Below are positions 26,301-41,815 of a stretch of DNA of 58,541 bases, piece after piece. Source of the stretch: Rhodocyclaceae bacterium (GTDB lineage: Bacteria; Pseudomonadota; Gammaproteobacteria; Burkholderiales; Rhodocyclaceae); assembly GCA_026417115.1 (NCBI GenBank), contig JAOADW010000025.1, positions 1-58,541 on the forward strand, given 5' to 3'. Under the pieces are notes generated by a model. The model ran no database searches and was not told the origin of the DNA. It worked only from the letters and a program-made list of their open reading frames with translations. Positions within the stretch are counted from its first letter, which is position 1; each line of letters opens with the position of its first letter. The translations under genes and the position numbers were made by a program.

Positions 26301-28314
26301 CCTCGATCGCTGCAAACAGCGCCCCCTCTGAAAGATTCGCCTGTTTCATCACGGGGCTTGCGGCAAAGAAGGCGCCCTGGAAGGCAATGCCCTGCATGCG
26401 CATCATGAGATCGGCAGAGCCCGCTTCTTCGCGCGCGATCTTGAAGGCATCGAGATAAAACACGCGAATGTCATTATCGACGATGGTTTTCTGTGCCCAG
26501 AGCGGGAAGCTCGCCCACGTGTCCTCCCCGAGGTTCGACTGAATGATGAAGATGCCGCCTTTTTTCAGTCCAGCGAGCGGATTCGAATGGTTGAACACAT
26601 AGGGGTCAGGCGAGAGCACGACATCGACATGGACGTATTCGCAATTGACGCGTATCGGCTCCGGCGCGGCGGACAAATAGTAGGTCGTCGGCTGCCCCTT
26701 CTTCTCCGAGCCATATTTGGGGTTGGCCTTGATGTCCCAGCCCAGGAGTTCGAAGAGCGTCAGCGCAAGGTTCTTGCCAGTCGTGATCGCGCCCCAGCCG
26801 CCAACCGAGTGCATGCGCACGGTGATCGCGCCTTCCGGCAGCAGGTTGGGGTTCTCCGAGCCGCGCAGGGCGAGGTCTTTGATCTGCGGATATTTCTCGA
26901 GCAATTCCTGGATGCGCACCTCGTCCTTGGGATGGAGCGGATCGCGCACGAAGTCGATGGAAAGATAGAAGAATTTGCGCCGTTTTCCCGTCGGCAGCAT
27001 GTTCTCGACCGCAGCGATCAAGCCCTCCGGCTGCAAGTCGCGGCTGCCGAGCCCATAGCAGCCCGAATACAAGCGCGGCATTTCGCCGGCTTTGAAGCTG
27101 GCATACTCGGGATAAGGCTTCTCGCCGCTCGTCGCGAGGCCATTTTCGAGGCATTTCGTGACCGTGGCGCGCACCTCGCGCATCAGCGGCAAGTCTTCGG
27201 CCAGAGGCTGATCGGTGCGCTCGAGCACGACCACGCCTTTCTTGCCCGCCAACATATGTCCGAGCAAATCGCCGGGGAAGGGACGATACATCGTGACATT
27301 GACGACGCCGACGCGCACTTGGCGCGTCTTGCGCAAGTAATCGGCCACCGCTTGCGCCTGGATCACCATGCTGCCCATGCCGACGATCAAGTAATCGGCG
27401 TCCTCGACCTTGTAGCCCGACACGCGGCGATAGCGGCGCCCCGTGAGCTCGGCATATTCGGCCATCACGCGATCGGCGATCTCTTCGACATGATCGAAGA
27501 AGAAAGGACGCTGCGCCGCCACCGCCTGCATATAGGAATCCTGGTTTTGCACGGCGCCTGAAACGAGCGGCGTATCGACATCCCAGATCGCCGGCACTCG
27601 ACGACGCTTAGGCCCATACAGCATGGCTTGCGCCGGTGTCGGCGTTTCGATGAGGTCATCGGGACGGCCAAGGAACTCCGCGATCAGCTCGCGCTCGGGC
27701 AACAGCGCCGATTCGATCAAGTGCGTGGTGAGGAACCCATCTTGGCCGACGACCGCCGGCGTGAGCGAGAGCTCTGCGATCTTGCGCGCAATCAAGTTCA
27801 AATCCGCCGCTTCGGTCGCATTGGCGGCCATGACCTGGATGAAACCCGTGTCATCGACGCAATGGAAGTCGTCGTGGCTGCAATGTACGTTCAAAGAGGC
27901 CTTGGTGATGGCGCGGCAGCCCATGTTGAGCACATAAGGGAGACGCTTGCCGGCCGCGGCATAGAGGGACTCGTGCATGAAGGCGACGCCCTGTGCCGAC
28001 GAGAAGTTGGTCGCGCGCAAACCCGCCATCGACAGGCCTGCGGTCACCGCCGCCGCGGCATGTTCGGATTCCGGCTCGATGAAGATCAAAGGCCGCCCGG
28101 AAATGTTCAGATGCCCCTGCGCAGCGGCCTCAGACCAGTATTCGCCCATCTGCGTCGAGGGCGTGATCGGATAGGCGCCTGCCGCATCGGAGGCTTCGCG
28201 TTCGACATGGATCACGGCGGTATTGCCATCGACCGCATCGCGGATGCCAGGATACTTGGGCTTTGCCGCTTGACCTTCGGTTTCCTTGCTCGTCGAAAAG
28301 AGTTTCATCAACAT
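23395..28314 (-). CDS. nifJ: Giant pyruvate (2-oxoacid):ferredoxin oxidoreductase, NifJ-type with extra ferredoxin domain
   Basis: A 1639-residue single-chain PFOR, about 400-450 residues longer than usual NifJ proteins. In order: the pyruvate-binding domain (AYPITPSTQMGEYWSEA, residues 47-63), the gamma/EKR domain (NPKYGSEKKGQ, 531-541), the first [4Fe-4S] motif C794-C797-C800-C804, a helical insertion (about 825-900), and the second motif C928-C931-C934-C938. The TPP domain has CFGCGE (1006-1011), C1136 and C1340 as proximal-cluster ligands and GGDGAMYD as TPP motif (1226-1233). A helical insert (about 1030-1115) and a C-terminal extension follow, the latter with a further ferredoxin-like set (C1568-C1571-C1574, C1610, C1614). 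The start has AGGGAG eight bases upstream. The position between rnfB and rnfC implies direct ferredoxin coupling to Rnf. The exact 2-oxoacid is uncertain. Confidence 0.93.
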   Translation of the reverse strand: MLMKLFSTSKETEGQAAKPKYPGIRDAVDGNTAVIHVEREASDAAGAYPITPSTQMGEYWSEAAAQGHLNISGRPLIFIEPESEHAAAAVTAGLSMAGLRATNFSSAQGVAFMHESLYAAAGKRLPYVLNMGCRAITKASLNVHCSHDDFHCVDDTGFIQVMAANATEAADLNLIARKIAELSLTPAVVGQDGFLTTHLIESALLPERELIAEFLGRPDDLIETPTPAQAMLYGPKRRRVPAIWDVDTPLVSGAVQNQDSYMQAVAAQRPFFFDHVEEIADRVMAEYAELTGRRYRRVSGYKVEDADYLIVGMGSMVIQAQAVADYLRKTRQVRVGVVNVTMYRPFPGDLLGHMLAGKKGVVVLERTDQPLAEDLPLMREVRATVTKCLENGLATSGEKPYPEYASFKAGEMPRLYSGCYGLGSRDLQPEGLIAAVENMLPTGKRRKFFYLSIDFVRDPLHPKDEVRIQELLEKYPQIKDLALRGSENPNLLPEGAITVRMHSVGGWGAITTGKNLALTLFELLGWDIKANPKYGSEKKGQPTTYYLSAAPEPIRVNCEYVHVDVVLSPDPYVFNHSNPLAGLKKGGIFIIQSNLGEDTWASFPLWAQKTIVDNDIRVFYLDAFKIAREEAGSADLMMRMQGIAFQGAFFAASPVMKQANLSEGALFAAIEAQLQAKFGAKGKRVVEDNLRVVKRGFLEVVEIVDKEVGKCKRSLAHNEIGLPVMLKELPAADGRVADIHRFWESTGYFYATGKGSDTLADPFMGTALIPAGSGIFRDMTGIRFEHPVWIPEKCTACGDCYTECPDSAIPGLALPIADVLGSLVTRIETAGTPTRHLRRAVRTVEKKLRAKLTRDYLSVRPLLLAAIEETLAEARAEEKEKLAEEFALLTDALGEFDFVTTKPYWTANEKKAKGSGGLFSITINPYTCKGCALCVEVCKDGALEMVTQTDESVARLKRDWQTWLALPTTPQSLIRIQDLDKKVGALKTLLLDKRNYQSMNCGDGACFGCGEKTAIHLFTATVTALMQPRVAAFVAKLDDLIARLEQHLRLKLASAVDLSDAQALLEAVAEASSHDLTLSKLAAKLDERRRGGLIDPQWLKNTVQLIDKLKDLRWRYTAGPTGRGRAEMGIVNATGCTSVWGSTFPYSPYPFPWSSHLFQDSPSVAMGLFEGHMAKMAEGFKAVRMAEKELAGDYLPARDDEFFQRFTWRDFSEEEWLLCPPVVALGGDGAMYDIGFQNLSRALMSGMPIKVLVVDTQVYSNTGGQACTSGFISQISDMAPYGKAQHGKQEIRKEIALIGMAHRTAFVCQSTIAHVNHLLECYIDGLNCRRPALFNVYAVCPPEHGVGDDASIKQSKMAVEGRAYPLFRFDPDAGETFAECASLEGNPAIDADWPTYTLRYRDEEGNEQSMKLPFTFADFAATETRFAKQFKKAPPETWNEAMVPLADFLDLPEDEREGKFPYIWAVDAQNRLQRLVVSADLVRSTAERRRFWRQLKGLVRGVQQAVDVDAIAERVRAEFLAKITASLGLAGSDSTLPATPLAALDTVKAPALGASIDYEPVWVETPECTACDECIAIAPKVFAYNDQKQVIVVDPKGARYADLVKAAEKCTAGCLHPGTPWNPHEPDLEKWIARAAKYN

Positions 28315-28338
28315 TGCTGCACTCCCTTTGTCAGGGGT

Positions 28339-29217
28339 TCAATCCAGCAACGGCAGAGGATCCTGGCGCAGGATCTTTTTCGCCGCCGCACCTTTGATTG
28401 CACGATTGGGGGTTTCGAACCAGACGATGGCGCCCGTCGGACAACGTTGGATGATGGCCGGGGACGTCCAGGCATTGAGCTCATAGCGCACTTCGGCCAA
28501 TTGGCCAGCCAGGCGCATGACTCCTGGCGGTGCATCGGCCACGCATTTGCCGCATGCCGTGCAGGCGACTTCGCAAGCCCGCTCGGCGGCCTCGCCATCT
28601 GCCTGATTCTTACAAGCCACCCACAGGCGATGGTGGATGGGCTCCAAAGAAAACAAGCCCTTGGGGCAGACCTCGACACAGTCGTTGCAGGCCGTGCATT
28701 TGTCGGCATTGACGTGTGGCAGGCCGTGCGCATCCAGATGCAGGGCGTCGAAGGTGCAGACCGCCTCGCAATCGCCCAGACCCAGACAGCCCCAGGCGCA
28801 TTCCTTGCCGCCCCCCGCGACTACGGCCGCCGCGCGGCAACTCCGATGGCCCGCATAACGGGCGCGCAGATAGGCGACATGGCGACCGCCGGCGCATGCC
28901 AAGCGGGCCACGCGCTTTTCCGCTTCACCCGCCGCCACGCCCAAAAGATCGGCGATGGCCTGACGCTGCTGGGGGGAGCAGACCGTGCAGCGCGCCGGCT
29001 CGATTTCTCCGGCCACCACCTTCTCGGCGAAACCGCGGCAACCCGGCAGACCACAGGCGCCGCAATTGCTCTTGGGCAAGAGCTCCTCGACTGTGTCGAT
29101 GCGCGGATCTTCGAAAACGTAGAGCTTGCGATTGGCCAACGCGAGGAGGCTGGCCAAGGCAGAGCCCAACAGGGCCATGAAGCCCCCTGCCACCGCGATG
29201 CTCGCAACGGATTCCAT
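28339..29217 (-). CDS. rnfB: Rnf electron-transport complex subunit RnfB
   Basis: A 292-residue subunit. The start at 29217 gives MESVASIAVAGGFMALLGSA with an N-terminal helix. It is followed by the Fe-S motif NCGACGLPGCRGFAEKVVAG and ferredoxin-type motifs (CTACNDCVEVCP; CEVACTACGKCVADAP). RnfB is the ferredoxin-interacting subunit. It contains several cysteines beyond the usual set (ECAWGCLGLGDCEAVC), as in other long RnfB proteins. It is the first gene of the operon and is followed after 24 bases by the PFOR gene. The open frame extends 73 codons upstream without a start-like context. Confidence 0.95.
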   Translation of the reverse strand: MESVASIAVAGGFMALLGSALASLLALANRKLYVFEDPRIDTVEELLPKSNCGACGLPGCRGFAEKVVAGEIEPARCTVCSPQQRQAIADLLGVAAGEAEKRVARLACAGGRHVAYLRARYAGHRSCRAAAVVAGGGKECAWGCLGLGDCEAVCTFDALHLDAHGLPHVNADKCTACNDCVEVCPKGLFSLEPIHHRLWVACKNQADGEAAERACEVACTACGKCVADAPPGVMRLAGQLAEVRYELNAWTSPAIIQRCPTGAIVWFETPNRAIKGAAAKKILRQDPLPLLD

Positions 29218-29470
29218 GACGCAGCCCGTAATGCCTCGGTAACACGCGCAGGGGAGAATGCCTACCCAGCGCGCCGTGATCAGAATGGGTTTTTTGCTTA
29301 CGCACAAACCCCCCTTTCCCACCTCTTTGGATGCCGCCTTGCGGGCGCATCGAAAAAGGCAGACACGGCGCAGCCGGGATTTCCGGGCTGCGTTGCAACG
29401 AAGCGGGTTGCTGCTTCGTTGCCTGGACATGTGCAAGGTTGCGCCTTGCGCATGCTCGTGTTCGGCTCTG
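29218..29470 (-). other. Long 5' leader of the rnfB-PFOR-rnf operon
   Basis: About 250 bases separate the candidate promoter from rnfB, with no credible gene. The stretch contains two adjacent GC-rich inverted repeats: one around CGCAGCC/GGCTGCG near 29370-29393, and a perfect 10-bp stem at 29395-29422. Either could be structured leader RNA. I do not recognise a riboswitch class. Confidence 0.4.
29395..29422 (-). repeat. Perfect inverted repeat in the rnf operon leader
   Basis: GCAACGAAGC (29395-29404) and GCTTCGTTGC (29413-29422) pair perfectly over 10 bp with an 8-base loop. It has no U-tract on either strand, so it is not a standard terminator. Confidence 0.6.
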
Positions 29471-29500
29471 AGTATAGAAAATCGTTTTGCGTTGCAACAA
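29471..29500 (-). promoter_or_regulatory. Candidate sigma-70 promoter of the rnf operon
   Basis: Read on the minus strand: TTGTTG (29500-29495) as -35, an 18-base spacer, and TATACT (29476-29471) as -10. It lies in the most AT-rich stretch of the divergent region, between the rnf operon and the Met-rich protein gene. Confidence 0.45.
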
Positions 29501-29552
29501 GCAGATTTTTTTATTTACCTATAACCAAATCTGATTCAAAGACGCCCGCCAG

Positions 29553-29571
29553 GCATGACATTTTGTCATGC
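29553..29571. promoter_or_regulatory. Upstream inverted repeat 1 (candidate activator site)
   Basis: GCATGACATTTTGTCATGC is a perfect 8-bp inverted repeat with a 3-base centre and core GACA-TTT-TGTC. Its core is the exact reverse complement of the second site at 29624. It lies about 175 bases upstream of the start point predicted from the sigma-54 promoter, a typical enhancer position. Confidence 0.6.
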
Positions 29572-29623
29572 TGGATTTCTCTGCCATAACAATGCGTTGC
29601 GTGAAAACATGCGGGAGCGCCTC

Positions 29624-29634
29624 GACAAAATGTC
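29624..29634. promoter_or_regulatory. Upstream inverted repeat 2 (candidate activator site)
   Basis: GACAAAATGTC, the second copy of the GACA-N3-TGTC core. Its centre is 67 bases from the first site and about 108 bases upstream of the predicted sigma-54 start point. Confidence 0.55.
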
Positions 29635-29710
29635 AGGGACACGCCGAGCCCCGGCCGGGAGGGGATGAAAAATTGCTGTATAATCATATTGTTACGAGCA
29701 GAATGGGGCT

Positions 29711-29726
29711 TGGCACGAGGCATGCA
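29711..29726 (+). promoter_or_regulatory. Sigma-54 promoter of the Met-rich protein / molybdoenzyme module
   Basis: TGGCACGAGGCATGCA, preceded by T. It matches the -24/-12 consensus TGGCACG-N4-TTGCW with one change (ATGC for TTGC) and the exact GG-to-GC spacing. A start point near 29737 follows. A response regulator with the sigma-54-contacting GAFTGA loop is encoded in the same module at 37584. A TATAAT at 29679-29684 could be an alternative sigma-70 element but lacks a partner. Confidence 0.75.
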
Positions 29727-29736
29727 AAAGCGTTTG

Positions 29737-29757
29737 CGCCGCCGCATAGCGGCGGCG
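29737..29757 (+). repeat. Hairpin at the predicted transcript 5' end
   Basis: CGCCGCCGC-ATA-GCGGCGGCG forms a perfect 9-bp stem with a 3-base loop, starting exactly where sigma-54 transcription should begin. A smaller stem, CTGACG/CGTCAG (29762-29778), follows. The palindrome TCCTTCGAAGGA (29787-29798) overlaps the ribosome binding site. Confidence 0.6.
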
Positions 29758-29807
29758 GGAGCTGACGCCCTTCGTCAGGAACCTGATCCTTCGAAGGAAT
29801 CTTGGTC

Positions 29808-30200
29808 ATGAAGAAAAGCATGATGATCTTGTCTTCCGCGCTGGCCATTTCTGCGATGAGCATGGCGTTCGCGCAAGAGCAAAAGGGCATGTCAGGAATG
29901 TCCGGCATGCAGGGCCAGCAAGGCATGAGTGGCATGTCCGGCATGAGCGGCATGCAGGGTCAGAAAGGCATGTCGGGAATGTCGGGAATGTCCGGCATGC
30001 AGGGCCAACAAGGCATGAGTGGCATGTCCGGCATGAGCGGCATGCAAGGCATGTCCGGCATGGAAGGCAAAGGCAAAAAGCAGCAGGAAGGCATGTCGGG
30101 CATGAGCGGCATGCAAGGTCAGAAAGGCATGTCGGGAATGTCGGGAATGTCCGGCATGAGCGGCATGCAAGGCATGTCCGGCATGGAAGGTAAAAAATAA
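29808..30200 (+). CDS. Secreted Met-Ser-Gly repeat protein (methionine-rich, MrpX-like in character)
   Basis: A 130-residue protein with signal peptide MKKSMMILSSALAISAMSMAFA. The mature part is built only from Gly, Met, Ser, Gln, Lys and Glu: tandem GMSGMSGMSGMQGQ(Q/K) units interrupted by MEGKGKKQQE, then repeated. I count 27 Met among 108 mature residues and no Cys or aromatic residue. The ATG at 29808 has GAAGGAAT as ribosome binding site. Met-rich periplasmic peptides such as MrpX of Azospira suillum scavenge hypochlorite by forming methionine sulfoxide, and other Met-rich proteins bind copper; either role is inference here. It sits behind a sigma-54 promoter and ahead of an intrinsic terminator, so it is probably highly expressed. 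Confidence 0.8.
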   Translation: MKKSMMILSSALAISAMSMAFAQEQKGMSGMSGMQGQQGMSGMSGMSGMQGQKGMSGMSGMSGMQGQQGMSGMSGMSGMQGMSGMEGKGKKQQEGMSGMSGMQGQKGMSGMSGMSGMSGMQGMSGMEGKK

Positions 30201-30223
30201 CGATCTCCTCCCAAAACCCTTTG

Positions 30224-30254
30224 AGGAGGGGAGAAAATATCTCCCCTCCTTTTT
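30224..30254 (+). terminator. Intrinsic terminator after the Met-rich protein gene
   Basis: AGGAGGGGAGA (30224-30234), loop AAATA, TCTCCCCTCCT (30240-30250), then a T run. The perfect 11-bp stem with T-tract is a textbook Rho-independent terminator. No promoter fits between it and the next ATG at 30276, so the downstream operon probably depends on partial read-through. Confidence 0.9.
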
Positions 30255-30275
30255 GCCTCCTCCGACTGTCAGGCG

Positions 30276-30596
30276 ATGCTCCTGCGTTTTACATACGTTC
30301 TCGTCCGTGGCATGCTGCTCTTGCTCGCGCCCGCCGTGGCCGCCGCCCAGCTTGGCTATCCGGTGGCTGGGCTTGCGCCTGACGCACGGCCGGCTGCAGC
30401 GCCACGCCTTACCGAGCCAAAGCCGATCGATCGTAAGACGGCGCTTTACGGCGTCAGCGCTCCCATTCCTCCAAGCCTTCGGTTCTTGGACCATCAAGGG
30501 GGGTGGTTCAATCCTTTCCTCGCTCCCGGCATGACAGGTCCCTATGATCTGCGAGGGTGGCATGCCGCGCGCACGCAAGGGGAGCCTCGCCCATGA
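30276..30596 (+). CDS. Small exported protein of the molybdoenzyme operon
   Basis: A 106-residue protein with an N-terminal signal peptide ending in PAVAAA before QLGYPV. The mature part of about 80 residues is rich in Pro and Ala and ends GWHAARTQGEPRP. I do not recognise the family, and it has no cysteines or heme motif. The ATG of the pentaheme cytochrome overlaps its stop codon (ATGA), so it belongs to the operon and may be a periplasmic partner or assembly factor. An internal Met (position 13) is a possible alternative start, which would still leave a signal peptide. Confidence 0.6.
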   Translation: MLLRFTYVLVRGMLLLLAPAVAAAQLGYPVAGLAPDARPAAAPRLTEPKPIDRKTALYGVSAPIPPSLRFLDHQGGWFNPFLAPGMTGPYDLRGWHAARTQGEPRP

Positions 30597-31477
30597 CGCG
30601 ACAAGATTTCCTCATCGGTGGCGTAATCCTCGCCGTTGTCGCCGCCATCGGCCTGACCGTCGGCTTTACGCGCCCTGAGGGCCCCCTTCAACGGGAGGCG
30701 ACAGCCGCTGCGGAAATCGCAGGCCTTCATCTGCGCGCCACCTATGATCCGCTGCATTTCAAACCGGCGATCGAATTGGCCCGCGACGAACAATGCCTCG
30801 TCTGCCACAAAGAGGTCTTGGAAGATCGCGTGCGAGAAACCTCCCCAGCCGGCGTACAGGCAAGCTGGAGCAAGGCGTGGTATCAGCGAGTCGCGACTTA
30901 TGAAGGCGAACAAGAGACGTTTCATCGTCGGCACCTGACGACGCCGCTCGCCCAGAAGCTGATGAAACTCAAATGCAATACCTGCCATGAAGGTCATGAT
31001 CCGCGGGAGGAGGCGCCAGGCTCTTCCGCCAGCGTGCCGCAAGAAACCCAGGCCTTCACGCTGCGCAAGCAGGTCAATCCCGAAACGACCTGCCTCAAAT
31101 GTCACGGGCGTTTCCCAGACAAAGAGATCATGGGGCTGCCCGGCCCTTGGGAAGAGGTCAAAGATCAATTTCAAAACGATTGCCTCGTCTGCCACGCCGC
31201 CATCCGCACCCACCGGCACCGCGTCAATTACCTCGACGCCGAGGCGATCGAGGCGATGGCGAAAGCCGGCCAGGCCACGCAAACGGCTGGCGACGTCTGC
31301 TACGGCTGCCATGGCGGGCGGGCATGGTATCGCATTGCGTATCCCTACCCGCGCCATCCCTGGCCCGGTATGTCGCCAGAAACTCCCGTGTGGGCGAAAA
31401 ACCGCCCCCTCCAATCGGAAGCTCGCTTCACGACGACGCGTCAGTCACTCGACCGTTTCCTGCAGCCTAAGCCATGA
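30593..31477 (+). CDS. Membrane-anchored pentaheme c-type cytochrome
   Basis: A 294-residue protein with one N-terminal helix (FLIGGVILAVVAAIGLTVGF) and a periplasmic domain. Five CxxCH heme motifs are visible in order: CLVCH, CNTCH, CLKCH, CLVCH and CYGCH. The first is at residues 68-72. It does not match NapC/NirT or the known octaheme families closely, and I cannot name its family. It overlaps the molybdoenzyme gene by four bases, so it very likely carries electrons between the quinone pool or periplasmic carriers and that enzyme. The hemes need the ccm genes found 8 kb downstream. Confidence 0.88.
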   Translation: MTRQDFLIGGVILAVVAAIGLTVGFTRPEGPLQREATAAAEIAGLHLRATYDPLHFKPAIELARDEQCLVCHKEVLEDRVRETSPAGVQASWSKAWYQRVATYEGEQETFHRRHLTTPLAQKLMKLKCNTCHEGHDPREEAPGSSASVPQETQAFTLRKQVNPETTCLKCHGRFPDKEIMGLPGPWEEVKDQFQNDCLVCHAAIRTHRHRVNYLDAEAIEAMAKAGQATQTAGDVCYGCHGGRAWYRIAYPYPRHPWPGMSPETPVWAKNRPLQSEARFTTTRQSLDRFLQPKP

Positions 31478-34044
31478 ACGCGCCCCCGTCCTCATCGCCT
31501 GTTTCTTCGCTCCTCAATCCCGCACGGCGCAATTTCTTGAAAGGCGCAGCCGCCGGCGCCGCTGCGCTGGGATTGTTCCGCTATGGCCTGCGCAGCGAAG
31601 AAGCGCAGGCACATGCCTACGAGCCCTACCCCACCGACGACCAATTGGAGACGGTGGTGACGTCCTGCGACCACAATTGCGGCTCGCGGCATATGCTCGT
31701 CGCCCACAAGAAAGGCGACGTGATCGTGCGCCTCTCGAGCGATGACGGGCGGTATCAAGCCGGCGGCGCCTTTGGTTTCGAAAGCGAACAAATCCCCCAA
31801 TTGCGCGCGTGTCTGCGCGGCCGCTCATATCGGCTTCGGCTTTATTCTCCCGAGCGGCTGCTCTACCCGATGATGCGCGTCGGCAAACGCGGAGAGGGCC
31901 GTTTCAGGCGGGTGTCATGGGATGAAGCGCTCGATTTCCTCAGCCATAAGATGGTCGAGCTCAAAACGAAATATGGCCCCACCGCGATCCTCGACCAGGC
32001 CTATGCGGGCGCCTCCTACGGGGTGTTGCACAAGTCCGATCAGATCGAGGGCTTGCTTGCACGCTTTCTGGGCATGTTCGGTTGCCGCACGAGCTCATGG
32101 TCGGTGCCCTCTTATCAGGGCACGACGTTTTCGAGCCGCATCACGTTCGGCACCATCGAAGACGGCAACGAAGACGACGCGTTCGCCTATTCGAAACTGA
32201 TCATCCTCTGGGGATGGAATCCTGCCTACACCTTCCATGGCGGCAACACCTTCTATTACATGCGACTGGCGAAGCAACGCGGCTGTAAGTTCGTGCTCGT
32301 GGACCCCCAATACACGGACTCCGCCGCTGCCTATGACGCCTGGTGGATTCCGATCCGGCCCAACACCGATGCCGCGATGCTCGCGGGGATGGCCCACTAC
32401 ATCTTCACGCACAACCTCCAGGACCAGGCCTTCATCGATCGCTTCTGCCAAGGCATGGACGAGGGCACGATGCCGGAATGGGCCAAAGGCCAGGAGAATT
32501 TCAAGGACTACATCCTGGGCAAATACGATGGGACGCCCAAATCGCCGGAATGGGCGGAAAAGATCTGCGGCGTGCCGGCTGCGGACATCAAAAAGCTCGC
32601 GGACATGTATGCGCGCACCAAGCCGGCGGCGCTAAAAGCATCCTGGGCGCCTGGGCGCAACGCCTATGGCGAGCAATACAACCGCATGGCGGCGGCCTTG
32701 CAGGCAATGACCGGCAACATCGGCATCCTGGGCGGCAGCGCCGAGGGGGTGGGCAAGGCTTGGCATGCCGAAGCAGTCGCCTACCCTTACGATGAGTATG
32801 CCAATGTCTGGTTTGCCTCGATCAAATCCGACCGCTGGGCGCATTGCGTGCTCAATTACCCCCACGTCCGGCGCGAAGAGATCGGCCTCTGGCCTCGCAC
32901 TGATGCGCTCGATGGCGTGATCCCGAACATCAAGGCGATTTGGTGGCATGGCTCCGATTGGTTCAATCAGCTCACCCATATCAACAAGGAAATCGCAGCG
33001 ATCGAGAAGCTCGAGCTCGTCGTCTGCGCCGATTCGACGATCACCCCTTCGGGCCTCTGGGCCGACGTGCTGTTGCCGGTGGCGACCCACTTCGAGCGCC
33101 ATGACGTCGCCCTGCCCTGGTATAAGGGGCATTACTACATCCACCGGCCCAAGGTCATTGAACCGCTAGGCGAGTCGAAGACCGATTTCCAAATCTTCAC
33201 CGAGCTCGCTTATCGCATCGAGGCGATCGACCCCACGGTCAAGGATTTCGGCAAGCGCTACAACCCGCGCGCCGACCGCAGCTATTGGGACAACCCCGAC
33301 GCCGTCGATGAAGCCTACCTCGAGGCCTGGTGGCGTCGCGTGCAAGAGCATCAGGGCGTGGCCATGTCATGGGAAGAATTCAAGCGGCGCGGCGTTTATA
33401 AATTCGTCTTCGATCGCCCGCTCGTTGCCTTCCGCGACCAGATCGAAAAGGGCATTCCTTTTGATACGCCCTCGGGGAAAATCGAAATCTTTTCCACGAC
33501 GCTGGCCCAGGTGAAGGACTGGACCAAGACCCAATGGGGCTATCCGATCCCTGCGATTCCGAAATGGATCGAACCCTTCGAATGGCTCGGCGCAGAGAAA
33601 GCGAAAGAGTACCCCTTCCATCTCGTCAGCCCCCATCCGCGCTGGCGCACGCATTCGATCTTCCACAACATTCCCTGGTTGCGCGAGACGTACCAACAAG
33701 AGGTCACGATCAACGCGGAGGACGCCGCGCGGCTTTCCATCCGCACGGGCGACATCGTCGAGATCTGGAACGATCGCGGCAAAGTCGTCGTCCCCGCCTA
33801 TGTGACGGAACGCTGCATGCCCGGCGTGCTGGTGCTCTACGAGGGCGCCTGGATGGATCTCGACGAGCGGGGGGTGGATCGCGCAGGCAACCCAGATTTC
33901 CTCACCAAGGACGAACCCAGCCCTGCAGGCGCTTTCGCCTACAACACGGTGCTTTGCAACATCCGCAAGACGACGCTGGAACACCGTCCAGGCTGGGATA
34001 GCGTCGCGACCTCCCGCGCCTACGTCTTCCGGCGTGACCGCTGA
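31474..34044 (+). CDS. Tat-exported molybdopterin oxidoreductase (DMSO reductase superfamily), substrate unknown
   Basis: An 856-residue catalytic subunit with twin-arginine signal (ARRNFLKGAAAGAAALGLF), so it acts in the periplasm. The N-terminal Fe-S motif is C65-x3-C69-x3-H73-x39-C113: the third ligand position is His where DmsA-type enzymes have Cys. The large domain has VSWDEALDFLSHKMVE, LIILWGWNPAYTF and VADVLLPVATHFER-like elements (WADVLLPVATHFERH), and the C-terminal domain has VSPHPRWRTHSIFHNIPW. The Mo ligand region is SSWSVPSYQGTTF, which suggests Ser rather than Cys, but this needs an alignment. Neighbours provide a pentaheme cytochrome, a four-cluster Fe-S protein and a TorD chaperone. 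Oxyanion, sulfoxide or polysulfide-type substrates are all possible. Confidence 0.9.
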   Translation: MNAPPSSSPVSSLLNPARRNFLKGAAAGAAALGLFRYGLRSEEAQAHAYEPYPTDDQLETVVTSCDHNCGSRHMLVAHKKGDVIVRLSSDDGRYQAGGAFGFESEQIPQLRACLRGRSYRLRLYSPERLLYPMMRVGKRGEGRFRRVSWDEALDFLSHKMVELKTKYGPTAILDQAYAGASYGVLHKSDQIEGLLARFLGMFGCRTSSWSVPSYQGTTFSSRITFGTIEDGNEDDAFAYSKLIILWGWNPAYTFHGGNTFYYMRLAKQRGCKFVLVDPQYTDSAAAYDAWWIPIRPNTDAAMLAGMAHYIFTHNLQDQAFIDRFCQGMDEGTMPEWAKGQENFKDYILGKYDGTPKSPEWAEKICGVPAADIKKLADMYARTKPAALKASWAPGRNAYGEQYNRMAAALQAMTGNIGILGGSAEGVGKAWHAEAVAYPYDEYANVWFASIKSDRWAHCVLNYPHVRREEIGLWPRTDALDGVIPNIKAIWWHGSDWFNQLTHINKEIAAIEKLELVVCADSTITPSGLWADVLLPVATHFERHDVALPWYKGHYYIHRPKVIEPLGESKTDFQIFTELAYRIEAIDPTVKDFGKRYNPRADRSYWDNPDAVDEAYLEAWWRRVQEHQGVAMSWEEFKRRGVYKFVFDRPLVAFRDQIEKGIPFDTPSGKIEIFSTTLAQVKDWTKTQWGYPIPAIPKWIEPFEWLGAEKAKEYPFHLVSPHPRWRTHSIFHNIPWLRETYQQEVTINAEDAARLSIRTGDIVEIWNDRGKVVVPAYVTERCMPGVLVLYEGAWMDLDERGVDRAGNPDFLTKDEPSPAGAFAYNTVLCNIRKTTLEHRPGWDSVATSRAYVFRRDR

Positions 34045-34055
34045 AGGGGGAAACC

Positions 34056-34727
34056 ATGGCGAAAAAGCTCGACGACAAGCAAAAGCTCAAGGCGGCGCTT
34101 GCGCGCAAAGTGGCGCAAACCTACGAGCCGGTCAAGCCCGCGATGCAGCTTGGCTTCGTCCACCACAATGTCGATTGCATCGGCTGTCGCGCCTGCGAGA
34201 TCGCTTGCAAGGACAAAAATGGCCTGCCGCCCGGTCCGCGTTTCCGCCGCGTGATGTATATCGAAGGCGGCGCCTATCCAGAGGTGTTCGCCTACAAGGT
34301 CAACATGTCCTGCAACCATTGCGCACAGCCCGCCTGTTTGCCGACTTGCCCGACGGGCGCCATCTGGAAGCGCCCCGACAACGGCGTCGTCGACATCGAT
34401 TCGACGCTGTGCATCGGCTGCCGCCGCTGCGAGGCGGCCTGTCCCTATGGCGCGCCCCAATGGGATCCATTCGAAAAAGTGATCAAGAAATGCAACCTCT
34501 GCATCGATGAGCTCGAAGCCGGGCGTAAGCCTTATTGCGTGATGGCCTGCATGATGCGCGTGCTCGACATCGGGCCAATCGACCGCTTGCGCGCGGGGTC
34601 CTGGAAAACGCCGGCCGTCGGCCCAGGCGAGCGGGTCGTACGGCAAGTCAAGAACATGGCCAATCCCGAGCTGACCAACCCCTCGATCGTCTTCGTCGCG
34701 CACAGCAAAGGAAAAATCGATGCATGA
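34056..34727 (+). CDS. Four-cluster Fe-S electron-transfer subunit (DmsB/PhsB type)
   Basis: A 223-residue protein with the four ferredoxin-like cysteine groups of DmsB-type beta subunits: CIGCRACEIAC, CNHCAQPACLPTC, CIGCRRCEAAC and CNLCIDELEAGRKPYC(VMAC). It has no signal peptide, so it should be exported with the Tat-carrying catalytic subunit. It transfers electrons between the Mo enzyme and its redox partner, here probably the pentaheme cytochrome because no DmsC-like membrane subunit is encoded. GGGGGAAACC lies just upstream of the start; the gene overlaps the chaperone gene by eight bases. Confidence 0.94.
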   Translation: MAKKLDDKQKLKAALARKVAQTYEPVKPAMQLGFVHHNVDCIGCRACEIACKDKNGLPPGPRFRRVMYIEGGAYPEVFAYKVNMSCNHCAQPACLPTCPTGAIWKRPDNGVVDIDSTLCIGCRRCEAACPYGAPQWDPFEKVIKKCNLCIDELEAGRKPYCVMACMMRVLDIGPIDRLRAGSWKTPAVGPGERVVRQVKNMANPELTNPSIVFVAHSKGKIDA

Positions 34728-35478
34728 GCCTCGAAGCATGCCGCTTTCCCGCGCCTTCGTCGAGGCCATCGCCGACGATGCGGAAGGTCTGGCCGCGTTG
34801 CACGACCGTGAGCTTACGCCGACATTGCTGAATGCGCTCTTGGAGGCGAAGTTCCCCGAGTCGCTGGGGCTCTTGCCGCACACCGAAGCGCAGCGGCAAG
34901 CCTGGCAGGCTTGTCGCGAGGCCCTTCGCCGTCTCGAAGTGGCCTCCGATGCCCGCCGCTTCGAGGAATTGGCCGCAGACTATGCGGCGATCTATCTGAC
35001 CGGCGCCTATGGGGTATCGCCCTGCGAATCGTTTTGGCGCGACGAAGACCATTTGCATTGCCAAGAAGCGATGTTTGCTTGGCGCGCGCATCACGCCCGT
35101 CTAGGCCTGCGCGCCGTCGATTGGCGGAAAAGGCCGGATGATCACCTCGTGCTGCAACTGCTCCATATCGCGCGCGCGCTGCGCCAAGCGAACGAAAGCG
35201 AAGACTTGCGCAGGCTGGCGCAAATACTCGACGAACACACGCTTGCCTGGATCTTCGATTTCGCGGCCAAAGTCGCTTACCGCTGTCGGGAGGATTTCTA
35301 TCGCGCCTTGGCGATGCTTACGGCGGCTTGGCTCGATGGCCTGCGCGAGGTGCTGGCCCAAGCCGTGGCAGCCCCTCGCCCCTTGCGCGCGGCGGTGTCC
35401 TCTCGCGAGGCCGAACGAAAGGCCGCAGAGGCGCAGAAAGGACTTCGTGCCCTGCCCGGCGGGGCGCCGACCTGGTAA
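34720..35478 (+). CDS. TorD/DmsD-family molybdoenzyme chaperone
   Basis: A 252-residue all-helical protein of the TorD family. It shows YAAIYLTGAYGVSPCESFW and the DDHLVLQLLHIARAL segment typical of the C-terminal helices. It would bind the Tat signal of the catalytic subunit and hold it until cofactor insertion. Translation is coupled to the Fe-S subunit gene by overlap. An in-frame ATG at 34738 (MPLSRAF) is an alternative start. The tail of about 40 residues is Ala/Arg-rich and probably unstructured. It is the last gene of the operon before the two-component genes. Confidence 0.9.
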   Translation: MHEPRSMPLSRAFVEAIADDAEGLAALHDRELTPTLLNALLEAKFPESLGLLPHTEAQRQAWQACREALRRLEVASDARRFEELAADYAAIYLTGAYGVSPCESFWRDEDHLHCQEAMFAWRAHHARLGLRAVDWRKRPDDHLVLQLLHIARALRQANESEDLRRLAQILDEHTLAWIFDFAAKVAYRCREDFYRALAMLTAAWLDGLREVLAQAVAAPRPLRAAVSSREAERKAAEAQKGLRALPGGAPTW

Positions 35479-35532
35479 TCTAGGGAATTCCTGAAAAACC
35501 GTTGCGAGCGGCTGATGGACGCGACGCAGGGA

Positions 35533-35660
35533 GCGTAAGCGACGAGACAACCCGAGGCGTGAGGCGGGCAAGCGAGCGCCGTGGGTTGCGGTTTAGGCTC
35601 ACGCGAGCGCAGCGAATGTGCCAAGCGCCCCGCAGCGGCCCGAGCCAAGAAATCGCGCAA
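35533..35660. repeat. REP-like GC-rich repeat region
   Basis: The interval between the chaperone and kinase genes contains GCGAGCGCAGCGAATGTG and nearby CAACCC/GGGTTG inverted ends. It resembles the GTGAGCGGAGCGAACGCTA element found at 41769-41787, suggesting a dispersed REP-like family. Boundaries are approximate. Confidence 0.45.
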
Positions 35661-35728
35661 CGCCGCCGTCCGGCCGCACAAGCAGGTCATTCAGAGGTTT
35701 CCTTGGCGTTCCAACGCAGTTTTTTTCC

Positions 35729-37615
35729 ATGTCGCATGTCGATCCCAGCCTGAGACAGCGTCTATCGGCGGCGATCGTGCTCGTCGCCGGCGTCGCCTCT
35801 TTGCTCTTCGGCGCATCGTTTTGGCTGCTTTACCGGCAGCAGCTCGAAGCCGAGCGGGCAGAAGCCTCGCTGCACGTCAATCGCACGCTGCAAGCCGCTT
35901 GGGAAAACGCAATGCTCAAACGCGACATCCCGGGTTTGCGCGACATCGTTGCGCGTCTCGGCGAGTTGCCAGGCATTCGCGACGTCATGATCCTCGCGCC
36001 GCAAGGCGAAGTCCGCTTCGCCTCCGACCCGCGTAAGCTCGGCTTGCAGCTGCCGTCCATCGCCCAAGCGCATCCTGCGGGCCAGCCCGTGACGCGCTTC
36101 GAACTCGTCCATGGCGCCGAGGTGTTGCGCTCGATCAATCCCGTGCCCAATCGCACGCCTTGCACGCCGTGCCATGGGGCCGTCGAAAAAAATCCGGTCA
36201 ATGGCATACTCGTGATCGACTATGACGCCGCGCCAATCCGCGCGCAGGCGCGTAAAAGCGCTTGGCTCTGGGCAGCCGCCGGTGTCTTGGTCGTGCTTTT
36301 GACGCTGACCACGCTTTGGTTCGTGCTGCGACGGCACGTGGTACGGCCGCTCCTTTCCTTGGAACGCACCGCACAAGCCCTTGCCAGCGGCGACCTCGCT
36401 GCGCGCGCCGAAAAGTCCGCCGACGATGAAATCGGCCGGCTGGCGGAAGCCTTCAATCAGATGGCGGAAAAGCTTTCCGCCCAGATGCGACGTCTGCTGC
36501 TCCAGCAGCATTACCTGCAAGGTGTCCTCGACGGACTGCCTGATGGCGTGCGCGTCATCCGTCTCGCCGACAAACGCGTCGTGCTCGCCAATCAAGCTTT
36601 TTGCCAGCAAGTGGGCCGCTCGCTCACCGAAGTCGTCGGCCAGGCCTGCCATCTCGCCAGCCATGGCAAGGCGGAACCTTGCATACCCACGCTCGTCGTT
36701 TGCCCGCTCGAGGCGCTGAAAGCCCCGGGCGCACGGCTCAAGACGATGCACCGACATCGCCATCGCGATGGCCACGAGGTGCCCGTGGAAGTGCATGCGG
36801 CGCGCATCGAGCTGGACGATGGCGCCGGGCCAGCCGCCTACGTGATCGAAGTCATGCGCGATCTCCGCGAAGCCGTGCGCATTTCCCAGGAGCAACGCCT
36901 TTCCGAACTCGGCTTGCTCGCGGCCGGCGTCGCTCACGAAATCCACAATCCCCTCGCCTCGATGCGGCTAGGCGTGCAAAGCCTGCAACGCGAAGCGGCT
37001 GCTGGCCGGCTCGATCCGGTCCGCGCCGCGGAGTATCTGGCCCTGATCGATCAGGAAATCGACCAATGCCTGGCTGTTACGCGCCGCCTGCTCTTGCTCG
37101 CGCGCCCGCCCAGCCAAACCCTGCAACCCGTCGTCGTCAATGACGCCTTACGCGACACCGTCCAGCTGCTCGAATACGATGCGCAGACGCGCGGCATACG
37201 TCAACACCTCACCCTGCCGGCCGAGCCCTTGCGCGTGCTCGCGGAAGAGGCAGAGATCCGCATGATTTTTCTGAACCTGATACAAAACGCGCACCATGCC
37301 ATGCCGGCAGGAGGCGAGCTGCACGCCAGCGCCTGGCAAGAAAACGGCGCCGTCGTCGTGGAAATACGCGACACCGGCGTGGGCATCGAACCGCACTGCC
37401 TGCCCCGCATTTTCGACCCCTTCTATAGCAAACGCGCCGACGGCGTCCACGGCACCGGTCTTGGCCTCACGATCGTCAAGAGCTGCCTCGAGCGGCTGCA
37501 AGGCTCGATTGGCGTCGACAGCGCGCCACACCGAGGCAGCGCCTTCACCGTGCGCTTGCCGAGCGCCGAAAAGGCTTTTCCCCATGCGCCGCAAGACACT
37601 CCTCATCGTCGATGA
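35729..37615 (+). CDS. Sensor histidine kinase with periplasmic heme-c motif and Cys-rich PAS domain
   Basis: A 628-residue kinase. Membrane helices lie at about 11-33 and 178-200. The periplasmic sensor domain between them contains CTPCHG (C145, C148, H149), a c-type heme attachment motif, just before the second helix. A HAMP segment follows (about 200-250), then a PAS domain with the cysteine/histidine pattern GQACHLASHGKAEPC and VVCPL. The HisKA motif is VAHEIHNPLASMRLG (H403), followed by the HATPase region (LNLIQNAHHAMPAGG, GTGLGLTIVKSC). Heme would allow redox or small-ligand sensing. The gene overlaps the response regulator gene by 32 bases and follows the molybdoenzyme operon, so it probably controls it. 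The start at 35729 is the first Met that leaves a normal N-terminal membrane helix. Confidence 0.9.
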   Translation: MSHVDPSLRQRLSAAIVLVAGVASLLFGASFWLLYRQQLEAERAEASLHVNRTLQAAWENAMLKRDIPGLRDIVARLGELPGIRDVMILAPQGEVRFASDPRKLGLQLPSIAQAHPAGQPVTRFELVHGAEVLRSINPVPNRTPCTPCHGAVEKNPVNGILVIDYDAAPIRAQARKSAWLWAAAGVLVVLLTLTTLWFVLRRHVVRPLLSLERTAQALASGDLAARAEKSADDEIGRLAEAFNQMAEKLSAQMRRLLLQQHYLQGVLDGLPDGVRVIRLADKRVVLANQAFCQQVGRSLTEVVGQACHLASHGKAEPCIPTLVVCPLEALKAPGARLKTMHRHRHRDGHEVPVEVHAARIELDDGAGPAAYVIEVMRDLREAVRISQEQRLSELGLLAAGVAHEIHNPLASMRLGVQSLQREAAAGRLDPVRAAEYLALIDQEIDQCLAVTRRLLLLARPPSQTLQPVVVNDALRDTVQLLEYDAQTRGIRQHLTLPAEPLRVLAEEAEIRMIFLNLIQNAHHAMPAGGELHASAWQENGAVVVEIRDTGVGIEPHCLPRIFDPFYSKRADGVHGTGLGLTIVKSCLERLQGSIGVDSAPHRGSAFTVRLPSAEKAFPHAPQDTPHRR

Positions 37616-38918
37616 CGACGCCATTTTCAATGGCCTGCTTTGCAAAGAGCTCGCTGCCCTAGGTTTCGCCGTCGAGGGCGTGAAGAGCTGGCAGGATGCA
37701 AAAAGCCGGCTCACGGAAATCGAGCCCGACGCCATCATCCTCGATTACAAGCTGCCCGACTGCGAAGCGCCCGCCGTCTTGGGCGAGATACGTCAGCAGT
37801 ACCCCGTCATCGTCCTCACAGGCTACGGCTCGATCCCAGACGCCGTCAAAGCCATTCGGCAAGGCGCCGCCGACTACTTGACCAAGCCGGTCGACATCGA
37901 CGAGCTGGAACTCACGGTGCGGCGCGTGTTGGAGACTGCCGAACTCAAGGCCTCGAACCGTTTCTATCGCGATCAGCTCGCACAACGTCGTCCCGGTCCC
38001 ATGATCTATGCCAGCCGCGCGATGCAGGAGGTGCAGAAAATGATCGACGCCGTCGGTCCTACCGACGCCACGGTATTGATCTTGGGCGAATCGGGCACCG
38101 GCAAGGAAATGGTGGCGCAGGCGATCCACGAGAAAAGCGCACGCGCAGGGCGCGAATTGGTCGCCCTCGACGCCAGCGGCTTGCAGGAAAACCTCTTCGA
38201 ATCCGAACTGTTCGGACATGAAAAAGGAGCTTTCACGGGTGCCGACCGTCAGAAGAAAGGGCTGATCGAAGAAGCCGATGGCAGCAGCCTCTTTCTGGAC
38301 GAGATCGGCGATATCGGCGCCGGCATCCAAGCGAAACTCTTGCGCGTGATGGAAACGGGCGCGTTTCGGCGTTTGGGCGGCACCAAGACGCTGCAAGCCG
38401 ATGTGCGCTTCATCGCCGCCACCAATCGCGACCTCGAAGCCATGACACGCACGGGCGCATTTCGCAGCGACCTTTTCTTCCGCCTTTCCCGCTTCGTGAT
38501 CCAATTGCCTCCTTTACGCGAACGGCGCGAAGACATCGAGCCGCTCGCGCGACACTTCCTTGCGCGCTTTACTCGCACTGCGCCGATGACGCTCTCGTCT
38601 GCAGCGCTTACGCTCTTGCTCGCCCATGACTGGCCTGGCAATGTGCGCGAGCTCAAAAACGCGATCGAGCGCGCGGTGATCCTCGCCCGCCCCGGCAGCC
38701 AGATCCTTCCCGAACATCTTGCGTTCCTCGCCCGAAGCGGAGCCGGCGAAGTCCTTTTGCGCTTTCCTCATGAGCCCACGCTCGAGGAACTCGAAAGCGC
38801 CTATTTCCGGCAAACGCTGCTCAAATGCGGCGGCAATCGACAAAAAACCGCTGCCGTCCTCGGCATCAGCGAACGCCACGTCTATCGCTTGATCGAAAAA
38901 TACGCGCCCGAGGCGTGA
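37584..38918 (+). CDS. NtrC-family sigma-54-dependent response regulator
   Basis: A 444-residue regulator. The receiver domain has the acidic pair (LLIVDDDA), phospho-acceptor D54 (AIILDYKLPD) and conserved Lys (YLTKPVD). The AAA+ domain has Walker A ILGESGTGKEMVAQ, the sigma-54 contact loop GHEKGAFTGAD, and Walker B SLFLDEIGD. The C-terminal Fis-type helix-turn-helix is NRQKTAAVLGISERHVYRLI. It should be phosphorylated by the overlapping heme kinase. The only strong sigma-54 promoter I found in the window is at 29711, ahead of the module, with two inverted repeats upstream as candidate binding sites. Confidence 0.95.
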   Translation: MRRKTLLIVDDDAIFNGLLCKELAALGFAVEGVKSWQDAKSRLTEIEPDAIILDYKLPDCEAPAVLGEIRQQYPVIVLTGYGSIPDAVKAIRQGAADYLTKPVDIDELELTVRRVLETAELKASNRFYRDQLAQRRPGPMIYASRAMQEVQKMIDAVGPTDATVLILGESGTGKEMVAQAIHEKSARAGRELVALDASGLQENLFESELFGHEKGAFTGADRQKKGLIEEADGSSLFLDEIGDIGAGIQAKLLRVMETGAFRRLGGTKTLQADVRFIAATNRDLEAMTRTGAFRSDLFFRLSRFVIQLPPLRERREDIEPLARHFLARFTRTAPMTLSSAALTLLLAHDWPGNVRELKNAIERAVILARPGSQILPEHLAFLARSGAGEVLLRFPHEPTLEELESAYFRQTLLKCGGNRQKTAAVLGISERHVYRLIEKYAPEA

Positions 38919-39093: not shown

Positions 39094-39699
39094 ATGCTGA
39101 CAGCCCACGATCTCGCTTGCGTGCGCGGCGACCGCACCCTTTTTTCCGGCATCGAGTTTTCGCTCGCGCCGGGCGAGTGGCTGCACGTCCAAGGCGAAAA
39201 CGGCGCTGGCAAGACGAGCCTTTTGCGCATCCTCGCCAGCCTTTCGCCCCCTGCTGCGGGCGAGATTCGCTGGCATGGGCGCTCGATCCGCGAGCTCGGC
39301 GCCGACTACCGCGCGCAACTGATCTTTCTGGGTCATCACGGCGCCGTCAAGGAAGAGTTCTCGCCTCTCGAGAACCTGCTTTTCGCCGCGCATCTCGACG
39401 AGGTTCCTTTATGCAGGCAAGAGGCACAGGCTGCACTGGCCGCCTTTGGCCTGCGCGGGCGCGAGGATCTGCCGGTGCGCTTTCTCTCGGCGGGCCAAAA
39501 GCGTCGCGCGCTGCTCGCACGGCTGGCCGTGCGACGCGCCTGCCTCTGGATCCTCGACGAGCCCTTCACCGCGCTCGACGTGAAAGCCGTGGCGATGCTC
39601 TCGGCCTTGATCGAGCGCCATCTCGCCCAAGGCGGCATCGTCGTCCTGACGAGCCATCAAAGCATGCCTTTGCCGAAAGGCAAAGCGCTTTCACTATGA
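39094..39699 (+). CDS. ccmA: Heme exporter ATP-binding protein CcmA
   Basis: A 201-residue ABC ATPase with Walker A VQGENGAGKTSLLRIL, a signature-like FLSAGQKRRALLARL and Walker B ACLWILDEPFTALD. It energises the CcmABCDE heme delivery step of system I cytochrome c maturation. It starts the ccm operon 175 bases after the response regulator and overlaps ccmB by four bases. The intergenic part holds no obvious gene. Confidence 0.95.
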   Translation: MLTAHDLACVRGDRTLFSGIEFSLAPGEWLHVQGENGAGKTSLLRILASLSPPAAGEIRWHGRSIRELGADYRAQLIFLGHHGAVKEEFSPLENLLFAAHLDEVPLCRQEAQAALAAFGLRGREDLPVRFLSAGQKRRALLARLAVRRACLWILDEPFTALDVKAVAMLSALIERHLAQGGIVVLTSHQSMPLPKGKALSL

Positions 39700-40361
39700 A
39701 CGCCCTCCTCTCCGTGATCCGACGCGACCTCTTGCTCGCGCTGCGGCGCAAGGGCGATGCCCTGACCGTCCTCTTTTTCTTCGTCATCGTCACGAGCTTG
39801 TTCCCACTCGGCATTGGCCCGGAAGCGAATCTCTTGCGCAAGATCGCGCCGGGCATTCTCTGGGTGGCCGCGCTGCTCGCGACCATGCTGGGGCTTGGTC
39901 GCCTCTTCGCCCCCGATCACGCCGATGGCACGCTCGAGCAAATGGCCTTGTCGCCCAGCCCATTCGGGCTCCTGGTTATGGGTAAAATCATTGCCCACTG
40001 GCTGACGACGGGCATGCCTTTGGTCGCGCTGGCGCCGTTTTTGGGCCTGCTCTTCGATCTGCCTGCGGATGCGCTGTTTTTGCTGACACTGACCTTGCTG
40101 ATCGGCACGCCGTTGCTCTCGCTGATCGGTGCCATCGGTGCCGCGCTCACCCTGGGCTTACGGGGAGGAGGAGTCCTGTTGTCGCTGCTCGTCTTGCCGC
40201 TTTACGTGCCTGCGCTGATCTTCGGCGCGGGCGCCGTCGAGGCCCAGATCGTGGGCTTGGATGCCTCCGGCCACCTGTCATTGCTGGCGGCGTTGCTCGC
40301 CTTGGCGGTTTTTTTCGCGCCCTGGGCCGCCACCGTCGCCTTGAGGATCGCGCTTGAGTAA
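39696..40361 (+). CDS. ccmB: Heme exporter membrane protein CcmB
   Basis: A 221-residue membrane protein with six helices, starting MNALLSVIRRDLLLALRRKG. The family segment LFAPDHADGTLEQMALSP is intact. The start overlaps the ccmA stop (ATGA). Partner of CcmA and CcmC in the release of holo-CcmE. Confidence 0.95.
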   Translation: MNALLSVIRRDLLLALRRKGDALTVLFFFVIVTSLFPLGIGPEANLLRKIAPGILWVAALLATMLGLGRLFAPDHADGTLEQMALSPSPFGLLVMGKIIAHWLTTGMPLVALAPFLGLLFDLPADALFLLTLTLLIGTPLLSLIGAIGAALTLGLRGGGVLLSLLVLPLYVPALIFGAGAVEAQIVGLDASGHLSLLAALLALAVFFAPWAATVALRIALE

Positions 40362-41736: not shown

Positions 41737-41759
41737 ACACAGGGGCATGAAATTTCGGC

Positions 41760-41812: not shown

Positions 41813-41815
41813 GCC

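Follow-up and report, generated by a model that had tools for sequence, protein, structure and literature searches.

Exported methionine-rich proteins that accompany a molybdenum (Mo) enzyme and a stress regulator of their own are known from Azospira, where MrpX, YedY1Z1 and SigF/NrsF are encoded in perchlorate-reduction islands and PMC4623255 describes sigF/nrsF, yedYZ and mrpX as a mechanism for methionine cycling in the periplasm. DmsABC of Haemophilus influenzae and Escherichia coli reduces methionine sulfoxide (MetSO), with quoted Km values of 35 µM and 90 µM, and its expression is raised by hypochlorite (PMC11024254, PMC12096835). DorA, a monomer served by DorB/DorC, reduces MetSO in proteins and prefers the peptide QWGAGM(O)QAEED approximately 3-fold over TTPGYM(O)EEWNK (PMC7402097). 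Here, we analyzed a 58,541-nucleotide stretch of DNA from a Rhodocyclaceae bacterium (the window), which is contig 17 of a draft genome of 2.27 Mb (62 contigs, 87% complete). The region at 29.6-38.9 kb of the window was found to be one coherent gene system, in which all parts listed in an initial annotation were present: two operator-like sites, a sigma-54 promoter, a methionine-rich protein, a terminator, a small exported protein (SEP), a cytochrome, a Mo enzyme, an iron-sulfur (Fe-S) subunit, a chaperone, a sensor kinase and a response regulator. With its Gly-Met repeat protein, dedicated Mo enzyme and heme-based sensor, the system resembles an oxidant sponge that would renew itself. We tentatively propose, with slightly less than even confidence, that the operon encodes a quinol-linked periplasmic MetSO cycle, in which oxidants would hit the methionine-rich protein and the Mo enzyme would re-reduce it.

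Upon comparison with the MrpX/YedY1Z1 system, we found that an exported methionine-rich protein, a Mo enzyme and a dedicated regulator were common to both, a likeness that rests on descriptions of MrpX rather than on its sequence and on an export signal judged by eye in our protein. In contrast, the enzyme in the window belongs to the dimethyl sulfoxide (DMSO) reductase superfamily and not to YedY with its sulfite-oxidase fold, an Fe-S subunit and a pentaheme cytochrome are present, and regulation involves a two-component system with a heme-c motif and sigma-54 instead of SigF/NrsF of the extracytoplasmic function (ECF) type. Our best reading is that the cycle would work like MrpX/YedY1 methionine cycling but share neither enzyme nor electron path nor regulator with it; the analogy drawn in the initial annotation, which had assigned the enzyme to a different family, therein holds. 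The DmsABC/YnfEFGH systems of E. coli and H. influenzae share with the locus a serine-ligated catalytic subunit exported by the twin-arginine translocation (Tat) pathway, an Fe-S subunit and a TorD/DmsD-type chaperone. Unlike these systems, the operon lacked DmsC, the third Cys of the FS0 cluster was replaced by His, and the SEP, cytochrome, methionine-rich protein and sigma-54 regulation were additional. DorA, TorA and MtsZ belong to the same superfamily and share the Ser ligand and the Tyr of the SYGW region; DorA differs in having no N-terminal Fe-S cluster (PMC10100899), and the SYGW motif is incomplete in our enzyme. No description of the operon was found in the open-licence papers searched, including excerpts of PMC9751292 and of the superfamily survey (PMC10100899), and the words DMSO, dms, sulfoxide and methionine were not found in the Thiodiazotropha genome paper (PMC11171427).

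The molybdenum enzyme and its clade

The catalytic subunit (31474-34044, plus strand) is a DmsA-like protein of the Mo-bis(pyranopterin guanine dinucleotide) type with a Tat export signal and the domains PF00384 and PF01568. It scored 601.1 bits against TIGR02166 (DMSO/selenate reductase), for which the cut-off is 777.7, and was far below the cut-offs of the YnfE, YnfF and DmsA models; identities to E. coli DmsA, YnfE and YnfF were 35%, 34% and 33%, respectively. For comparison, a set of 81 loci was used, comprising the window and the best 80 of 279 relatives from a scan of named genomes (76-85% identity to the Mo subunit of the window); the scan used peptide patterns from the query and is therefore biased to close relatives. 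These 80 relatives were labelled mostly Alpha-, Beta- and Gammaproteobacteria. In addition, a search with the Mo subunit at E <= 1e-100 gave matches in 15 of 300 genomes from the order (eight at 77-100% identity, the source genome included, and seven at 36-37%) and in 22 of 398 from the phylum (five at 76-100%, again with the source genome included, and 17 at 34-37%). Members of the clade thus showed 76-86% identity to the window and DmsA-type proteins 34-37%, with none between at this threshold.

In a quick tree, 80 family rows were split from DmsA, YnfE, YnfF and two other relatives, with a support of 100* and a long stem. L084, in which the Mo open reading frame is incomplete, as well as L016, L018-L021 and L023, was left out of the tree, and L019 and L023, whose frames had been misread in the alignment of the Mo subunit, were not used after it. 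Two contigs labelled Desulfobulbus (L082) and Clostridia (L093) grouped among Beta- and Gammaproteobacteria and were probably misbinned. The result supports a clade separate from the characterized DmsA/YnfE clade, in line with the earlier description of the enzyme as uncharacterized.

As evident from the alignment, Ser213 occupied the position of the Mo ligand in 80 of 80 sequences, matching the Ser of DmsA, YnfE, YnfF and DorA, and a ligand other than Ser was accordingly rejected. Tyr177, which phmmer paired with the SYGW tyrosine of DorA, was likewise invariant (80/80). The FS0 cluster had the form C-x3-C-x3-H...C, with His as the third ligand in all 80 sequences and Cys at this position in DmsA, YnfE and YnfF. 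The nearest solved relatives of the Mo subunit were DMSO/trimethylamine N-oxide reductases. Because of the Ser ligand, the kinship with DmsA and DorA and the (GMS)n partner, we favour a sulfoxide over an oxyanion as the substrate, which narrows, at the level of sequence-based argument, the broader list proposed initially (oxyanion, sulfoxide or sulfur compound).

A further explanation is the opposite direction of catalysis, in which the enzyme would act as a dehydrogenase that delivers electrons to the pentaheme cytochrome, protected or chaperoned by the methionine-rich protein. The carriers include Thiodiazotropha, Sedimenticola and Sulfuritalea, lineages known as sulfur oxidizers, and the wiring of multiheme cytochromes works in either direction. 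We nevertheless consider this explanation very improbable, as the Ser-ligated relatives named in PMC10100899 are mostly S-/N-oxide reductases, with transhydroxylases/hydroxylases as the exception.

The methionine-rich protein and its regulation

The methionine-rich gene (29808-30200, plus strand; a TTG start at 29802 is open too) encodes a (Gly-Met-x)n protein with a signal of the general secretory (Sec) type, as judged by eye. Such a gene was scored when a plus-strand frame no more than 1.5 kb upstream of the cytochrome gene contained eight or more Met within 40 residues. Of the 81 loci, 57 have one in this position; in four loci, the upstream sequence was too short to score. Applied to the remainder of the 81 loci, this test picked up two isolated matches (L056 and L077), besides reverse-strand frames of the same genes. 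After the first GM, the 57 proteins consisted of 36% Gly, 25% Met and 16% Ser, with only 1.2% Pro in the proteins, and 37 of them contained neither His nor Cys in this part. The spacing between Met residues was three residues in 2,023 of 2,310 intervals and six in a further 182. Between 11 and 94 Met were counted after the first GM in the 46 frames that were uncut by contig ends, and runs of N were present in three of the 57 sequences. Inserts of YFQITPQGQIFFYPASG or W[VI]CTQW interrupted the GM repeat in some proteins of L062, L085, L087, L094 and L096. The protein of the window scored 58.6 bits against the collagen repeat family PF01391 (cut-off 27.2) and that of its relative L087 21.3 bits; this match reflects Gly at every third residue of the sequence.

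In the order sample, a strict GMS DNA pattern, which demands two Ser-type codons, matched five of 300 genomes, three of which (G000, G218 and G248) carry the operon, the matches in G248 falling outside it. In the two genomes without the operon (G003 and G133), the matches fell in multicopper-oxidase-type genes, which we take to encode CopA-like multicopper oxidases. The strict pattern replaced a loose four-GMx pattern that was dropped after matching 134 of 300 genomes; among the matches listed, most were of the GGM type, presumably GroEL tails. Of the seven further genomes in the order sample that carry the operon, five have a methionine-rich gene beside it. Contig 23 of the source genome (5960-6190) encodes a second, unlinked methionine-rich protein, which is small and combines GMSGMQ repeats with a lipoprotein-like signal, and a C-terminal (GMx)n tail was observed in two genomes of the same family (L148 and L151), on proteins that we take to be ABC substrate-binding proteins of the branched-chain amino-acid type.

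These sequences are relevant to copper or silver handling, in which (GMx)n would be a chain of MxxM Cu(I) sites buffering periplasmic copper and the molybdoenzyme would be linked only through shared redox conditions. The Met spacing of three residues fits MxxM, and both strict-pattern genomes of the order that are without the operon had their match in genes presumed to encode CopA-like oxidases. Nevertheless, we regard this explanation as improbable: no copper family was found among the 16 recurrent accessory clusters that were run against Pfam, the kinase bears a heme-c motif, and the association with the molybdoenzyme would be left unexplained.

Upstream of the methionine-rich gene, a predicted sigma-54 promoter on the plus strand (TGGCACGAGGCATGCA, 29711-29726) matched 11 of 12 consensus positions. 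It was preceded by two putative regulator sites, of which site 1 (GACATTTTGTC, 29557-29567) is an exact GACA-N3-TGTC palindrome and site 2 (GACAAAATGTC, 29624-29634), also GACA-N3-TGTC, starts 67 bp downstream of site 1. Enrichment was scored over 34 loci with the methionine-rich gene, the kinase and regulator genes and enough upstream sequence. Ahead of the first gene, sigma-54 sites with at least 10 of 12 positions occurred in 22 of these loci against 0.56 expected, exact GACA-N3-TGTC sites in eight against 0.24, and sites with no more than one mismatch in 27 against 4.54. In the 20 loci lacking the methionine-rich gene, a sigma-54 site was found in two (L083 and L099), an exact palindrome in none and one with a single mismatch in two (L033 and L080). 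The source genome also contains an rpoN gene without internal stops. This enrichment is in keeping with the initial view of one conserved, self-regulated module.

A predicted intrinsic terminator follows the methionine-rich gene (30223-30254, plus strand) as a 12-bp hairpin leading into a T-run, with a folding energy of -26.3 kcal/mol, which was equalled by one of 200 shuffles, and a z-score of -3.34. A simple consensus scan of 29400-30700 found two terminator-like sites against 1.3 expected, the second being palindrome 1, and proves nothing alone. A hairpin with a T-run was found 3' of the stop codon of the methionine-rich gene in 13 of 57 loci against 0.9 expected by the simple scan, which left the hairpin of the window itself unscored.

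The sensor histidine kinase (35729-37615, plus strand) has a periplasmic Cache/PAS-like domain with the heme-c motif CTPCH, and CxxCH was conserved in 43 of 43 orthologues. The sensor domain, predicted from 36 of the 43 sequences, gave a model with a predicted local distance difference test (pLDDT) score of 85, whose fold matched WalK, DctB and CitA and, lower, GSU0935. The Geobacter sensor domains GSU0935 and GSU0582 contain heme c; they resembled the kinase domain in weak profile matches (E values of 0.013 and 0.015) and in fold, but belong to chemotaxis receptors, unlike the kinase, and WalK and DctB matched the fold better. The response regulator (37584-38918, plus strand) is of the NtrC type, with PF00072, PF00158 and PF02954 over their cut-offs and a GAFTGA motif. 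Both genes adjoined the operon in 43 of 81 loci, using cut-offs of at least 38% identity for the kinase and 44% for the regulator; lower matches (e.g., L032, L065 and L078) were not counted.

Among 58 scorable loci, the methionine-rich gene and the two-component system were both present in 42 and both absent in 11, with the methionine-rich gene alone in four and the two-component system alone in one (Fisher p = 6.6e-8, phylogeny ignored). It is suggestive that the methionine-rich gene, the kinase and regulator and the sigma-54 promoter tend to occur together. Parsimony required eight changes for either trait. The rows branching nearest to the outgroup root bear the methionine-rich gene, and repeated loss of this gene is therefore likely, with the deep forks weakly supported.

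The proposed cycle and the points against it

In the proposed MetSO cycle, the heme-c-motif kinase would sense a periplasmic redox change or an oxidant and phosphorylate the regulator, which, judging from the conserved sites, would bind the paired GACA-N3-TGTC elements and open the sigma-54 promoter. The terminator after the first gene would yield an excess of the exported (GMx)n protein, and read-through would yield less enzyme. Oxidants would turn the exposed Met residues into MetSO. From the subunit types, electrons are expected to pass from the membrane to the pentaheme cytochrome (with the SEP), then to the Fe-S subunit, FS0 and the Ser-ligated Mo center, where the sulfoxide would be reduced. 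On balance, the respiratory chain would pay for the removal of oxidants, or the cell would respire oxidized methionine; operons without the methionine-rich gene would use free or other protein-bound sulfoxides. Each Met of the GMSGMQ repeat sits in a Gly-rich context like that of the GAGM(O)Q peptide preferred by DorA. In a more speculative form, which we consider doubtful, the (Gly-Met-x)n protein would be a "methionine rail" that carries up to approximately 94 Met on one face of an extended helix and serves as both a renewable terminal electron acceptor and a shield, charged by oxidants and discharged through a quinol-linked Mo-Fe-S-pentaheme complex.

Several observations weigh against the MetSO cycle. 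The methionine-rich gene was not found in 20 of the 81 loci, each of which has 1.2 kb or more of sequence upstream, and the reductase core is kept in such operons. G067 had no methionine-rich match genome-wide, and in G187 the only matches were one short frame and an unlinked binding protein that bears a short GM tail; the protein is therefore not an obligate partner. Other proteins use MxxM repeats to bind Cu(I), and the proteins of G003 and G133, which we take to be CopA-like, carry runs similar to the repeat. The association between the methionine-rich gene and the two-component system was phylogenetically clustered, and a phylogeny-corrected test, in which the four or six supported independent pairs are too few for significance, gave a median p of 0.25, with averages of 2.7-2.8 concordant and 0.1-0.0 opposing pairs (one opposing in some pairings). 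The "closed circuit" of structural genes and regulators suggested initially is backed by co-occurrence and promoter conservation but not by the corrected test. In the Mo subunit, none of the four DmsA/YnfE-type proteins compared has the family residue at 191 positions where this residue is conserved in 97% or more of the members, which makes the transfer of a substrate by homology weak. Moreover, the counterpart of SYGW was [A/S/G]YAG in 80 of 80 sequences, with Gly-Trp replaced by Ala-Gly. The full motif is missing from E. coli DmsA as well, and is held to be necessary for sulfoxide reduction by DorA (PMC7402097). DorA itself reduced one to two of six casein MetSO residues and showed limited activity on two native proteins (PMC7402097), and, according to PMC11024254, MsrAB deals with protein-bound MetSO and DmsABC with free S-/N-oxides only.

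Part of this evidence would be explained if the enzyme served respiration as a general reductase, with a small S- or N-oxide or some other soluble compound as the acceptor. The methionine-rich protein would then only protect or serve the periplasm whenever that acceptor, or a by-product of it, is oxidizing. This explanation, which we consider possible at well below even confidence, is consistent with the presence of the reductase core in operons without the methionine-rich gene and with the catalytic and Fe-S subunits being far more conserved than the cytochrome, chaperone and SEP. It also agrees with the sources cited above, in which DmsABC and DorA reduce many small S-/N-oxides. It fits less well with the methionine-rich gene being first or nearly first in the operon and being retained beside the reductase in three classes.

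Other components, genomic setting and significance

The SEP gene (30276-30596, plus strand) lies outside all Pfam and NCBIfam families. Its profile matched in 53 of 81 loci; among the 28 unmatched loci, 14 had at least 1.2 kb of upstream sequence, and a six-frame search of all 28 was empty. Against the PDB, the profile gave only three matches (E 0.05-0.2), taken as chance, and a structure predicted from 47 of 49 excised sequences had a pLDDT of 61 and was nearly without secondary structure. The cytochrome (30593-31477, plus strand) has five CxxCH motifs and one N-terminal hydrophobic segment and scored over the Cytochrome_C7 cut-off; exactly five motifs were counted in 75 of 80 proteins. The two probably form one complex, since the SEP and the cytochrome are fused in frame as a single protein in Hydrogenophilus sp. 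SKW272 (L057, 7904-8971).

The Fe-S subunit (34056-34727, plus strand) is DmsB-like (193.3 bits against TIGR02951, cut-off 214.1) and probably carries four [4Fe-4S] clusters, with 16 Cys in 69 of 79 proteins. The chaperone (34720-35478, plus strand) is of the TorD/DmsD type (PF02613, 51.6 bits, cut-off 22.2) and was below the cut-off on the NCBIfam TorD and DmsD models. No DmsC membrane anchor was found among the nine window proteins scanned, the rest of the genome lying outside this search. At L042 (12227-14297), the chaperone and kinase genes are separated by genes for an NrfD/DsrP-like membrane protein, which belongs to a cluster of three loci, and for another multiheme cytochrome; this arrangement suggests a quinone link at that locus.

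The Mo-subunit and cytochrome genes share 4 bases, and overlaps were also seen between the chaperone and Fe-S subunit genes and between the regulator and kinase genes. These overlaps suggest that the operon genes are co-transcribed. The likely start codons of the cytochrome (30593), kinase (35729) and regulator (37584) were chosen by reading. In the two other sampled genomes of the same genus (G020 and G150), the Mo enzyme was unmatched at E <= 1e-100, and the operon is thus accessory.

Directly 3' of the regulator, a gene run (39094-44843) resembles, as named from its translations, what we take to be a ccm cytochrome c maturation cluster. It is followed by a NapC/NirT-type cytochrome (45872-46444), which scored 302.6 bits, just below the TIGR02161 cut-off of 310.6, and by a NapA periplasmic nitrate reductase (49213-52020); NapA was rejected as the partner of the methionine-rich gene, as the napA start is approximately 19 kb away. 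Divergent from the operon, the minus strand at 21994-29436 encodes RnfC, a 1639-residue protein that is presumably pyruvate:ferredoxin-oxidoreductase-like and an RnfB-like Fe-S protein. In the other loci, a thioredoxin-NHL protein (L097, 14732-16354; cluster in 12 loci) and a 4Fe-4S protein (L088, 5727-6803; cluster in 21 loci) recurred near the operon, mainly downstream, and an Fe/Mn superoxide dismutase gene (L045, 13543-14127; cluster in five loci) was located approximately 7 kb from the start of the Mo enzyme.

The locus offers a concrete candidate substrate for this clade within the DMSO reductase superfamily. It further adds SEP, an exported family associated with a multiheme cytochrome, an FS0 in which His takes the place of one Cys, and a sensor that combines a heme-c motif with predicted DNA sites. 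If the MetSO cycle is correct, the operon would represent a methionine-redox defence wired to respiration across three classes of environmental bacteria, clam symbionts included.

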